Source of the DNA: Candidatus Saccharimonadota bacterium
GTDB lineage: Bacteria > Patescibacteriota > Saccharimonadia > Saccharimonadales > UBA4665
NCBI GenBank assembly: GCA_028289245.1
Contig: JAQGGT010000004.1
Location: 62,001-126,000, forward strand
Reading direction: 5' to 3'
DNA length: 64,000 nt
The first letter of the stretch is position 1. Each line of letters starts with the position of its first letter. The notes below the pieces were generated by a model that was not told where the DNA came from, did not search any database, and was given only the letters and a program-made list of their open reading frames with translations. The position numbers and the translations under genes are program-made. Of the stretch, positions 52,968-56,872 are shown one piece after another.

Positions 52968-53738
52968 ATGTCCGAAAAATTGATACCGCCGTTTGCCAAC
53001 GGCCAGCACAATGCCCACTGGATGCATGCTACGCATGCGCCGGAAGTGGTGGAGACGGCGGCGGGTGATCACCTTGCGCCAGATGAGGCGGTACTTACGA
53101 ATCTTGCGCACCTGCGCCAGTACGTCCCGATTATCGCCTCGGTTGATGTGACGCCGCTGGCCCAAGTTTCACGGGCGATCACCTGGGACGAACTTGATGT
53201 CCAAGCCTTCAATCTGTTCCGCCAGCAACTTGGCCCATTTGATTTTCGGCTGGAGCCGATGCAGCCCGTTGACAAAGTCGGCTATGCAGCCAAGGCGGCT
53301 ACGGGAATTGCCATGGCGATATTGGAGGTCTCGGCCCATTTTATCGAACCGACCGAAGCTAATAAAAATGCTGCCGGGCTGGCTATTGCCCATGAAACCC
53401 TGCCCTTGTTGCTCGAATGGATGAGTTTTTCTGATGCTACCGATGCACTACTGACCCGCCAACTGTTGCGTCGCAAGGTCGGACGGACCGGCATTCGCTC
53501 ATTCTATGGTATGCGCTTTCACCCTGATCGCTTCGAGCTACACGACGGGGGCCTGCGTTTTTCGGAAACGTTTCTACAAAATGTTGTCGATAAGCGCCAA
53601 CGTCACAGCCTGAAGGATGATGACCCGAGCGATGTTATTTTTGGCTGTCCTGCCCGCCGTGACTTCGGTAAACTCTACCGGGTTATGAGCCGTAAGGCCG
53701 CCGCCGATGGTCTGTTTAGCCTGCCTTACCGTAAGTAA
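52968..53738 (+). CDS. Hypothetical protein, 256 residues
   Basis: A soluble protein with a helical centre (AKAATGIAMAILEVSAHFI, LAIAHETLPLLLEWMSFSD) and a C-terminal segment with basic residues (RQLLRRKVGRTGIRSFYGM) ending FSLPYRK. The GCPARRDFGKLY part has a lone cysteine. Not recognised. It precedes the 53.8 kb attenuator region. Confidence 0.6.
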   Translation: MSEKLIPPFANGQHNAHWMHATHAPEVVETAAGDHLAPDEAVLTNLAHLRQYVPIIASVDVTPLAQVSRAITWDELDVQAFNLFRQQLGPFDFRLEPMQPVDKVGYAAKAATGIAMAILEVSAHFIEPTEANKNAAGLAIAHETLPLLLEWMSFSDATDALLTRQLLRRKVGRTGIRSFYGMRFHPDRFELHDGGLRFSETFLQNVVDKRQRHSLKDDDPSDVIFGCPARRDFGKLYRVMSRKAAADGLFSLPYRK

Positions 53739-53792
53739 ACCTGCACCAAAAAAAGTTTTGCTTTTTACATCACTCTTTGATAGCATGACCTT

Positions 53793-53931
53793 GTGACAAC
53801 ATATGCCGCCAACTGGACCCAGCAAAACTGCAAGCGCTTCGCTCGCATGATTTTGCACGCCTAGTTGGAATTCGGTTTTTCAAAAGCACTAACACCAAAC
53901 CGGATTCCAAACGAGGAAGCCGGTTTTTTTT
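53793..53931 (+). promoter_or_regulatory. Candidate transcription attenuator or riboswitch leader
   Basis: Mutually exclusive stems: 1:2 CCAACT (53809-53814) with AGTTGG (53863-53868), enclosing TGCAA/TTGCA (53829-53833, 53853-53857); 2:3 TTGGAATTCGGTTT (53865-53878) with AAACCGGATTCCAA (53897-53910), one G-U pair; 3:4 terminator AACCGGATTCC with GGAAGCCGGTT (53915-53925) followed by eight Ts. A promoter TTGCTT-17-TAGCAT (53758-53786) would start the RNA near 53793. A 23-codon GTG frame (53793-53864) ends exactly at strand 2. The controlled gene starts at 53944. Confidence 0.7.
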
Positions 53932-53943
53932 AAGGCAAGAAGT

Positions 53944-54495
53944 ATGACTACAAAAGAAGCAATTCCACTACAATCACCCCACACTAAAGAGGACGCCAGA
54001 GCCTTAGTTACGCATGGCCTCATGAAAACTAACGATCAGCACCTTGAGAGCGAATTCGGTAGTATCGCCAGCGAGAAGCGCCAGCGGTTGCTGCCCTACA
54101 TGTTCCGTTTGCGGCGAGCTCTGACTGAGCCAGGTGCGGTACCTTTCGTAGCTACCTTCCGGTCGGCTGAGGTGCCGATGGCCTCGGCTATCCAACCGCG
54201 GAGCATGGAATCTTTTGATAATATTCACGGTTTGTTTCTAGCCGAATTTGGTCACCGTCAACTGAGTGTCGCTCACGCTGTGGAAGAGCCGGCCCGTCTC
54301 CAAGTCGGTAGTTTAGGACGGTTCATTCTCGAACGAAATGGTGAAATCGGCCACAACGGCTCGGCGGCGGTAACGTACGAACTTCATGAAGTTGACCTCG
54401 ATGAGTACACGGCCGCACAGCATCAGCTGGTTCCGGAGCTGAGCCATATGATTCTCAGCCACTGGGTAGACTTTCTATACGCCACGCGTGGCTAA
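53944..54495 (+). CDS. Hypothetical protein downstream of the attenuator
   Basis: A 183-residue soluble protein, charged and mixed alpha/beta (ASEKRQRLLPYMFRLRRAL, GHRQLSVAHAVEEPARLQVG, AVTYELHEVDLDEYTAAQH). No recognised domain. The start follows the terminator T-run by 12 bases, with AAGG before it. Control of its transcription by the leader structure suggests a metabolic or translation-linked role; that is inference. Converges on the tmk-thyX fusion with one base between. Confidence 0.6.
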   Translation: MTTKEAIPLQSPHTKEDARALVTHGLMKTNDQHLESEFGSIASEKRQRLLPYMFRLRRALTEPGAVPFVATFRSAEVPMASAIQPRSMESFDNIHGLFLAEFGHRQLSVAHAVEEPARLQVGSLGRFILERNGEIGHNGSAAVTYELHEVDLDEYTAAQHQLVPELSHMILSHWVDFLYATRG

Positions 54496-54496
54496 G

Positions 54497-56872
54497 CTAT
54501 TTGTCGAGCTGCTGTAGCTTGTACTGGGTGTAGCGCTCGGCGGCGAGGCGTGTCAGCTTGGCGTCTTCGCCGGAATTTACAAACCGCATGGCTTCAGCGA
54601 GCTGTGGGTGGACTTCGGCAAGTTTTTCGTGCATTTGCAGCACTAATTTGCGATAGCCAGGGTGACCCTGCGGGCTAGTCCGCAACTCGTGTAAATGGAA
54701 GGCTTCGCGGGCATTGTACGTGACCTTCCAGCGCATTTTGTGGCCGAGCAGCGTGGCGTACTGTGCCTCGAGGGCGTAACCGGATTGCTGTAACAGACTA
54801 TAGAGTTTGAGACTAATCTCGAAGCACGCTTCGAACTGATCGGTGAGGTTGGCTTCTTCGATGAGCTTAGGCGTTTCGTAGCCATAGCGTGGCGTCAGCT
54901 GTTGCCATTCGAGGTCATCGACCATCCGGTGGCGCTGCAAGTCGCGGAAAATACCATAATCGCATACCAAATCCCAGCTGTAGTGGGCTTTTTCGAGGGC
55001 TCGGCCTGGCCGATGCCGGCGGTTGAGGCGTTCACCCATATACGCAGCAAAGACTTCGGTTTTTTTATCGTAAGACCAGCTGGCAACCTCGGTCTCAATG
55101 GCTTCGAGTGGTAAATTGCTGTGCTCGTAGAGCATGTCAGGAACCAGATTGAGCTCGTTGCGCGGCCAGTAGTCAGTTAAAGTGACGGCTTCGGAAGTAG
55201 CGGCGTAGTTGTCGGGCAGGAGGTCGGTGGCTAGTTTTTGAACGGCCGTATGCGTATTTGAGCGATAGGCGATCAGGGCGCCGCCGCGCTCTGGGTTGTC
55301 GGCGCGCTCTAGGAAGGTCGGCATGACTTTGCGGGCTTCGTCGAGTACCCGTTGGCCGGTTATCCGTGCTTCTGGTAAGTCATCGCTGAGGAGATGCATA
55401 ATCAGGCTCTCCAACGCCTGACCAGAGGCAAAAATGCCAACAGTTGAGGTGGTAGCCACTGGTAATACCGGCCGGACAGCGTCGCAAGCCTGGGCACGGA
55501 TAGCGCCCTTCCAGGCGCCGTCGCGTTCGGCCTCTGGGGTATCCGAAGCGTTCTGTAAGTGCAGCGTCAGGGCGTGGACCATCGCTGAGTAGAGATCAAA
55601 CATGGTGTTCATGGCTTCGATGTACTGCTTGCGGATGGATGGCTTGAAGTGCTTGGGTATATGGAAGCGGTAGTGGCCCTGGGCATCCTTCTGGTCGAAA
55701 TAAATATAGCGTGTGGACTGCTCAAGGTACGCGGCGAGGCGACCCCACTCTAATTTCTTGGTAAGCAAGTTACTGGCATTCTCGACGACCAGGTGTTGGC
55801 CGACTAGCTGCTGCACCGAATCGTCGCCGTAAGCGGTGATAACGCGCTGAATGAGCTTTTCATCTTTACCGAGATTAGCAGCAAATTCGTCGAGAATAGT
55901 AACCCGCATGTCGTCACCGCGGCGGCTAAGGCGAGCCATGGCGGCAGCAGCAGTGAGACCTTCGAGCTTAGTAGTGGCGTACACGTCGCCATCAACATTG
56001 GTAATATGCTCGCGCAGCCAGGCTTTGCCGGCGGCAGTGGGACGCATGCCGTACTTGGTTTTTTCGACTAACGGCTGTTCATCGGCTGGCTGAACCTCTT
56101 GAGAGGTGGCGGCAACTTCGGTTTCGGCGACTGCTGTTACCGGCAGCTCGGGACTGATCGGTGGCGCATAGGGCGCGGCTTTCTGCTCAATTATTTCTTT
56201 GATGGCAGTCGGCTCGCTGGGGTGCTGCCCGTCGCGGCTGGTGAGCTCGGTGCTGACCAGCTGCCAGATCTGTTCACCGACTTCTTCGGGGGTGGTATTC
56301 GCAAACACCACCGGGAACTGGCGCTGCTTGGCCTCCCAGAGGTAGCCGGCCCGGACGCGCTCCAAAAAGCCTTCGTCCAGGTTGTCGAAGCGCTCGCCGT
56401 TGTATCGGTCACGGACGCGCTCTTTGAGGGTAGTGGCTGGGGCGTCCATGACGATGCATAGATCGGGCTCATTTTCGCCGACGGCGAACTTGATGATATT
56501 AGTGATGGCCTGGTAATCCGGCACATCACCGCGGCCGTAGTACTGGATGGCCAGCGTAGTTAGATAGTTACGGTCGACTAAGCAAATAATGCCCTGCTCG
56601 ACGCTGGCCCGGATAACTTCGAGCGACTGCGAGCGCGCAGCGTTGTAGAGTAATACCTCGGTCCGGGTATTCATCGGGTAGCGGGGATCTTGGGTGAGCT
56701 GACGGATAGCCCGGGCGGTAAGGTCGCTCTGGCTGTCCGGCTCGCGCAAGGTGCGTACTGGATAACCGGCGGCTTGCAAGCGGTCGGCGAGCATGTTCAA
56801 CTGAGTGGTCTTGCCGACCCCCTCTGGTCCTTCGATGACGATGTAACGGCCGCGGCTGTTTGCGCTATTCAT
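54497..56872 (-). CDS. Fused thymidylate kinase and duplicated flavin-dependent thymidylate synthase (Tmk-ThyX-ThyX)
   Basis: One uninterrupted 791-residue ORF. Residues 8-205 are thymidylate kinase (dTMP to dTDP): P-loop EGPEGVGKTT (14-23), VDRNYLTTLAIQYYG, and a lid region RVRDRYNGERFD. After a linker (about 205-265), residues 270-560 are a ThyX-like half without the RHR signature (LEQSTRYIYF stands in its place). Residues about 565-790 are a second ThyX half with DLQRHRMVDD (RHR near 647-649) and NAREAFHLHELR. ThyX uses FAD, NADPH and methylene-THF to make dTMP from dUMP. The halves probably complement each other. Overlaps dcd by eight bases. Confidence 0.9.
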   Translation of the reverse strand: MNSANSRGRYIVIEGPEGVGKTTQLNMLADRLQAAGYPVRTLREPDSQSDLTARAIRQLTQDPRYPMNTRTEVLLYNAARSQSLEVIRASVEQGIICLVDRNYLTTLAIQYYGRGDVPDYQAITNIIKFAVGENEPDLCIVMDAPATTLKERVRDRYNGERFDNLDEGFLERVRAGYLWEAKQRQFPVVFANTTPEEVGEQIWQLVSTELTSRDGQHPSEPTAIKEIIEQKAAPYAPPISPELPVTAVAETEVAATSQEVQPADEQPLVEKTKYGMRPTAAGKAWLREHITNVDGDVYATTKLEGLTAAAAMARLSRRGDDMRVTILDEFAANLGKDEKLIQRVITAYGDDSVQQLVGQHLVVENASNLLTKKLEWGRLAAYLEQSTRYIYFDQKDAQGHYRFHIPKHFKPSIRKQYIEAMNTMFDLYSAMVHALTLHLQNASDTPEAERDGAWKGAIRAQACDAVRPVLPVATTSTVGIFASGQALESLIMHLLSDDLPEARITGQRVLDEARKVMPTFLERADNPERGGALIAYRSNTHTAVQKLATDLLPDNYAATSEAVTLTDYWPRNELNLVPDMLYEHSNLPLEAIETEVASWSYDKKTEVFAAYMGERLNRRHRPGRALEKAHYSWDLVCDYGIFRDLQRHRMVDDLEWQQLTPRYGYETPKLIEEANLTDQFEACFEISLKLYSLLQQSGYALEAQYATLLGHKMRWKVTYNAREAFHLHELRTSPQGHPGYRKLVLQMHEKLAEVHPQLAEAMRFVNSGEDAKLTRLAAERYTQYKLQQLDK

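Follow-up and report, generated by a model that had tools for sequence, protein, structure and literature searches.

A putative leaderless-ORF transcription attenuator conserved beside thyX in an order of Saccharibacteria-type bacteria

Results

Gene content of the locus

The window, i.e. the whole 64,000-nt stretch of DNA that was analysed, belongs to a genome of 1.22 Mb (hereafter G000). The gene of interest (53944-54495, forward strand) encodes a protein of 183 aa without a family match and ends 1 nt before the stop codon of the convergent thyX. The latter belongs to a 791-aa ORF (54497-56872, reverse strand) fusing a thymidylate kinase to a flavin-dependent thymidylate synthase (ThyX). With the genes that follow it, one for dCTP deaminase and one for what may be a nucleotide kinase, the fusion makes up a deoxynucleotide cluster. 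Upstream lies a 256-aa gene (52968-53738, forward strand) with a C-terminal VIFGCPA motif, and a 276-aa gene at a similar place in the congener G003 carries the same motif. Further upstream, an L10 leader (Rfam RF00557; 52240-52383, reverse strand) precedes rplJ.

The 183-aa protein has a single homolog among 60 relatives, a 37% identical protein in G003. Sequence searches of Pfam, PHROGs and the PDB with the protein yielded no match, and its AlphaFold model has a pLDDT of 51. The downstream proteins of relatives that were scanned (88-243 aa) had no family match either. By homology they sort into several small groups; most of the proteins are unrelated to one another and so give no functional clue.

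Anatomy of the leader

The region between the 256-aa gene and the 183-aa gene (53758-53944) had been predicted to hold an attenuator with mutually exclusive hairpins. A sigma-70-type promoter is predicted at 53758-53786 on the forward strand, with a -35 box TTGCTT (53758-53763), a 17-nt spacer and a -10 box TAGCAT (53781-53786). The consensus match is weak (7/12), but the promoter position is kept in relatives with a much better consensus of the form TTGACA-16/17-TANNNT, e.g. the TTGACA-17-TATAAT class. A GTG codon coincides with the predicted RNA start at 53793 and opens a leader ORF of 23 codons, MTTYAANWTQQNCKRFARMILHA, on the forward strand (53793-53864) that ends with TAG at 53862-53864. 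An RNA starting at the start codon leaves no room for a ribosome-binding site, hence initiation would be leaderless.

Four strands follow on the same strand of DNA. Strand 1, GCCGCCAACTGG (53805-53816), lies within the ORF and is predicted from folding and co-evolution to pair with strand 2, CTAGTTGGAATTCGGTTT (53861-53878), which is common to the 1:2 and 2:3 pairings. Strand 3, AAACCGGATTCCAA (53897-53910), would serve both as the antiterminator partner of strand 2 and as the 5' arm of the terminator. The predicted intrinsic terminator is completed by strand 4 (53915-53926) and a run of eight Ts (53924-53931; 53915-53931 overall), as judged from sequence and pair counts. The T-run is separated from the ATG of the 183-aa ORF (53944) by 12 nt. 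The promoter, the GTG at the RNA start, the frame ending at strand 2, all four strands and the eight-T terminator of the original prediction were confirmed base by base. The prediction had also recognised no riboswitch or T-box, and the Rfam search agrees: the window contains only tRNA and L10 leader matches, neither at the element, where no riboswitch, T-box or known leader family scored above the gathering threshold.

The whole leader folds better than its dinucleotide shuffles (z -2.7). A script scan covered ~450 kb (~37%) of G000 and covariance models covered the remainder. In the ~450 kb, scanned on both DNA strands, the strands of the element were the top-scoring three-strand set, and 4 of 99 terminator-like sites showed such a layout. 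We judged two of these four sites to be genuine attenuators, the thyX-side element and a leader upstream of trpS (see below). A covariance model of the strand 2-3-4 segment, R2, had a single match in the whole genome, which was the element itself.

Recurrence across the order

The element is not a chance arrangement. It recurs, mostly beside thyX, in at least 25 loci of a single order, distributed over more than ten families. The named records carrying it are Candidatus Saccharibacteria, and the titles of the records suggest that the order is Saccharimonadales. Leader DNA was found in two congeners. In G003, the leader is 72% identical at the same syntenic place, and thyX again follows a 256-aa-type gene, the leader and a 181-aa homolog in that order. 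G001 also retains the leader, but its next protein could not be related to the 183-aa protein. When the region 3' of thyX was searched for the structure in 30 genomes of the family, eight leaders were returned. These first eight were found by the strand 2-3-4 structure only, without an ORF criterion, and all eight also have an ORF ending at strand 2. Later leaders were screened jointly on promoter, ORF and terminator. The family total rose to 11 leaders in five genera, and six more came from a scan of 80 loci in named genomes, most of whose records bear the title Candidatus Saccharibacteria.

A nucleotide model of three close leaders (R1) had recovered one further secure copy (G004) and a weak syntenic one (G018), and was superseded by R2. 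R2 was built from 14 copies and covers only the part from stop codon to terminator. At E<=0.1 it matched 64 of the 392 order genomes searched. Many of the E-values lie between 1e-4 and 1e-14, and the strong matches are spread over more than ten families. Ten copies from outside the training set were read closely, and nine have a promoter, a start codon and a frame of 22-27 codons (G038, G046, G050, G119, G120, G124b, G133, G134 and G159); G049 fits partly. Outside the order, a sample of 379 genomes from the phylum gave two weak R2 matches (G545 and G613), which look like chance and were discarded. The weak matches in one large family of the order (f34) were mostly judged chance as well. Genome G124 has two leader copies (L214 and L236), the former without a clear leader frame.

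Most copies adjoin thyX (folA/thyA in G046), with rplJ/rplL on the other side in many, and thus occupy an orthologous place. Six matches in family f36 (L224, L227, L229, L234, L247 and L255; leaders MVQKR.. and MFTNS..SNAVVW) look like real leaderless leaders, located elsewhere in the genome. A gene with a YWPKLTRFHP motif (YWPKLTRFHPKDD) is close to four of them, so the element type probably occurs at another locus too. The comparison of relatives indicates that the switch is conserved and the downstream protein is not.

Co-evolution of the alternative pairings

The 1:2 pairing forms one long hairpin, within which most of the leader ORF lies. This hairpin is found in nearly all copies, with a mean z of -3.0 over 25 copies. 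Strand partners of the 25 copies were exchanged between genomes in 2000 permutations per duplex. The S1:S2 duplex has -17.3 kcal/mol with its own partner and -12.2 kcal/mol when swapped (sd 0.58), and the S2:S3 duplex -17.9 and -12.4 kcal/mol, respectively (sd 0.65). None of the 2000 permutations was as good as the native set for either duplex. Since close relatives have partners in common, the test is stricter, not more lenient. Compensatory changes were seen in 2:3 and 3:4. Some measures of these changes lie beyond nearly all shuffles (for 3:4, the counts of paired cells and of cells changed on both sides were reached in 0 of 500), and others do not. Taken alone, the compensatory-change counts are moderate evidence of pairing.

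A TCCAA-type sequence complementary to strand 2 is present in both strand 1 and strand 3 in several to many copies, so the 1:2 and 2:3 pairings would be mutually exclusive. Together with the terminator pairing 3:4, these exclusive pairings appear to be conserved by co-variation. The original prediction depended on conservation of the strands in relatives and on a transcript common to leader and gene. The strands are conserved and co-evolve, and leader and gene lie on the same strand with 12 nt from T-run to ATG, a layout that points to one transcript. The proposed attenuator layout therefore holds as far as sequence allows.

Geometry and coding content of the leader ORF

In typical copies, the start codon (mostly GTG) lies 6-10 nt behind the -10 box of a sigma-70 promoter. 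The frame always has 22-28 codons in such copies and stops at strand 2. An ORF that overlaps strand 1 and has its stop codon at strand 2 is an arrangement with a low background rate. Across the first 11 copies, the offset from stop codon to strand 2 ranged between -14 and +3 nt.

The 11 leaders of the element's own family, from five genera, all carry TGC (Cys) at codon 12-15. While the stop codon wanders, the spacing from this codon to strand 2 is steady at 30-40 nt. In G000, TGC is codon 13 (53829-53831, forward strand), a candidate stall codon ~36 nt ahead of strand 2. Besides the start Met, only Cys and the following Lys are common to all four leaders of genus g1, and only Cys to all four of genus g25. 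Elsewhere in the order, Cys is missing in L155/G121 (AGC at the aligned codon), G038, G124b, G133 and G159, and G046 and G133 have TGC against TTT at the same codon. A universal rule of a Cys codon in every leader was dropped, since Cys is lost in several other families of the order. TGC/TGT occurs in the leader frame of 16/17 copies compared to 14/17 and 11/17 in the other two frames. Being common in the other frames too, the TGC/TGT count alone proves nothing, and the case for Cys lies in its fixed position within the family. As a candidate control codon, Cys is fixed in the family and not order-wide, and the gene has no evident link to cysteine.

The hydrophobic C-terminal pattern of the peptide (YGFVLIMA) raised the idea of an arrest motif. 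Strong purifying selection on the peptide was not seen by eye in the codon-position changes of two close pairs (G000/G003 and G046/G133), hence this comparison lends no support to peptide-specific stalling. Because the ORF forms one long hairpin, A and C prevail in its 5' half and U and G in its 3' half, which explains much of the peptide pattern. The hairpin and the codon changes in close pairs thus account for much of what would otherwise suggest an arrest motif.

A second leaderless attenuator upstream of trpS

A second predicted leaderless attenuator of G000 (L116; G000:C4:145601-165600) is encoded on the reverse strand, with the leader start near contig position 159155 and a strong promoter, TTGACA-17-TATAGT. 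Its ATG lies 7 nt behind the -10 box and opens a 23-codon ORF, MKTTQRQQYWLTDTARDGLFCVF, followed by a terminator, an aspartate/glutamate-racemase-like gene and trpS. Of the 12 leaders that were detected ahead of trpS in family genomes, 11 have a Trp codon. The trpS leader resembles the thyX-side element in its promoter, the start just behind the -10 box, the 23-codon ORF and the terminator before the operon. Unlike the latter, it has a clear Trp control codon matching its target trpS, and the leader sequences are unrelated. By analogy, the trpS leader may serve as an internal precedent for codon sensing.

Discussion

The element has the anatomy of an attenuator, is conserved across an order, and combines co-evolution of both alternative pairings with a kept promoter-start-stop geometry. 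Its best explanation, which we hold with good though not full confidence, is a ribosome-mediated transcription attenuator with a leaderless leader ORF. Transcription start, translation, termination and readthrough are inferred. The RNA would start at or very near the GTG, and a ribosome would load on the 5' end and trail the RNA polymerase. Without a loaded ribosome, the ORF would fold as the long 1:2 hairpin, leaving strand 3 free for the 3:4 terminator that stops transcription. A ribosome reaching the stop codon would cover strand 2 and again favor the terminator. A ribosome stalled part-way, with the Cys codon 13 as a candidate site, would open the 1:2 hairpin and free strand 2. Strand 2 could then pair with strand 3, and RNA polymerase would read into the 183-aa gene. 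Because a part-way stall allows 2:3 to form, slow leader translation would induce the gene. The stall signal may be uncharged tRNA(Cys), a general slowdown of translation, or an effect of a drug or of the nascent peptide.

The original prediction left open whether control is by the ribosome or by a ligand. The leader frame is kept in typical relatives while the sequence diverges, which favors the ribosome and disfavors the ligand. An RNA switch binding a ligand or protein, with the long 1:2 hairpin as the sensor and the ORF incidental, draws on the strength and conservation of that hairpin and on nucleotides conserved locally around TGCAAGC...GCTCG in g1. Such a switch is nonetheless improbable given that frame, start distance and stop position are maintained over all typical copies. 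Within the leader ORF, the g1 alignment has a sole indel, of 3 nt, compared to indels of 1-5 nt outside the ORF, and there is neither a conserved aptamer-type loop nor an Rfam match. Intrinsic terminators are ordinary between two codirectional genes, and the hairpin might simply terminate the upstream 256-aa gene, with complementarity arising by chance. The co-evolution of the strands and their order-wide conservation make this highly improbable, as do the conserved promoter between upstream gene and leader and a next start codon only 12 nt past the T-run.

Two special cases of the ribosome-mediated attenuator differ in what the leader would sense. The leader could be a general sensor of translation stress, where any slowdown of the ribosome leads to readthrough and codon identity is secondary; this is a serious candidate, if short of an even chance. 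The slowdown might come from amino-acid shortage or from a ribosome-binding antibiotic of the host or neighbours. Codons drift between families while the geometry is kept, and Cys-less leaders retain the full layout, both as expected of such a sensor. The fixed TGC inside the family is left unexplained though, and no resistance-type gene lies downstream. That TGC is instead what a cysteine-specific attenuator would require, with uncharged tRNA(Cys) stalling the ribosome at the single Cys codon and turning the gene on. This version, which we entertain tentatively, is consistent with the codon position in all 11 family leaders of five genera, with Cys as the near-sole residue common to leaders within g1 and within g25, and with the 30-40 nt to strand 2. 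The Trp-codon attenuator of trpS is a precedent for single-codon sensing in the same genome. Against cysteine stand the failure of Cys to persist across the order, the frequency of TGY in all frames and a downstream gene that is not a cysteine gene.

The ribosome-mediated attenuator shares with the E. coli trp/his type a leader ORF over strand 1 with its stop codon at strand 2, exclusive 1:2 and 2:3 pairings, a 3:4 terminator, and a gene that would be off once the leader is read through. Unlike the E. coli type, the ORF is leaderless with at most one candidate control codon, most of the ORF lies inside the 1:2 hairpin, and the target is a non-biosynthetic, fast-diverging gene. From the parts of the literature consulted, the nearest published case appears to be the leaderless polycysteine short ORFs of mycobacteria (Canestrari et al. 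2020, Mol Microbiol 114:93; via PMC9094748). As far as the available account goes (PMC9094748), these likewise combine a leaderless ORF, cysteine codon(s) and control of a downstream gene. They carry runs of Cys codons (same account), whereas the leader here has one Cys codon and no consecutive run. An earlier comparative paper found the Mycobacterium cys leaders without a conserved terminator hairpin (PMC1262725). The element differs from the mycobacterial leaders in its clear terminator, unrelated target and phylum. The L10 leader (RF00557), ~1.4 kb away, is also a cis-acting leader in the same neighbourhood. It is a protein-responsive ribosomal leader on the other strand and has no sequence or layout in common with the element. 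The open literature searched contained no leader-peptide attenuator in Saccharibacteria/Patescibacteria and almost nothing on cis-regulatory RNA in Patescibacteria. As an attenuator, the element is an undescribed member of a known mechanism.

The RNA family points to leaderless translation and ribosome-coupled control of transcription in ultra-small bacteria, and the trpS companion provides a ready positive control. A broader role is possible, though we consider it rather doubtful. Saccharibacteria-type episymbionts might use the element throughout the order, its leaderless ORF sensing ribosome inhibition or a shortage of one host-supplied amino acid (cysteine in this family, re-tuned elsewhere). 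The element would then turn on hypervariable proteins whose genes share one fixed place, next to thymidylate synthase and the ribosomal stalk operon. If true, the switch would have been kept and the controlled protein largely replaced, as expected of proteins involved in conflict or host interaction. The fixed locus with its fast-changing proteins is marked as worth study, and the element would report what starves or stresses Saccharibacteria-type bacteria.
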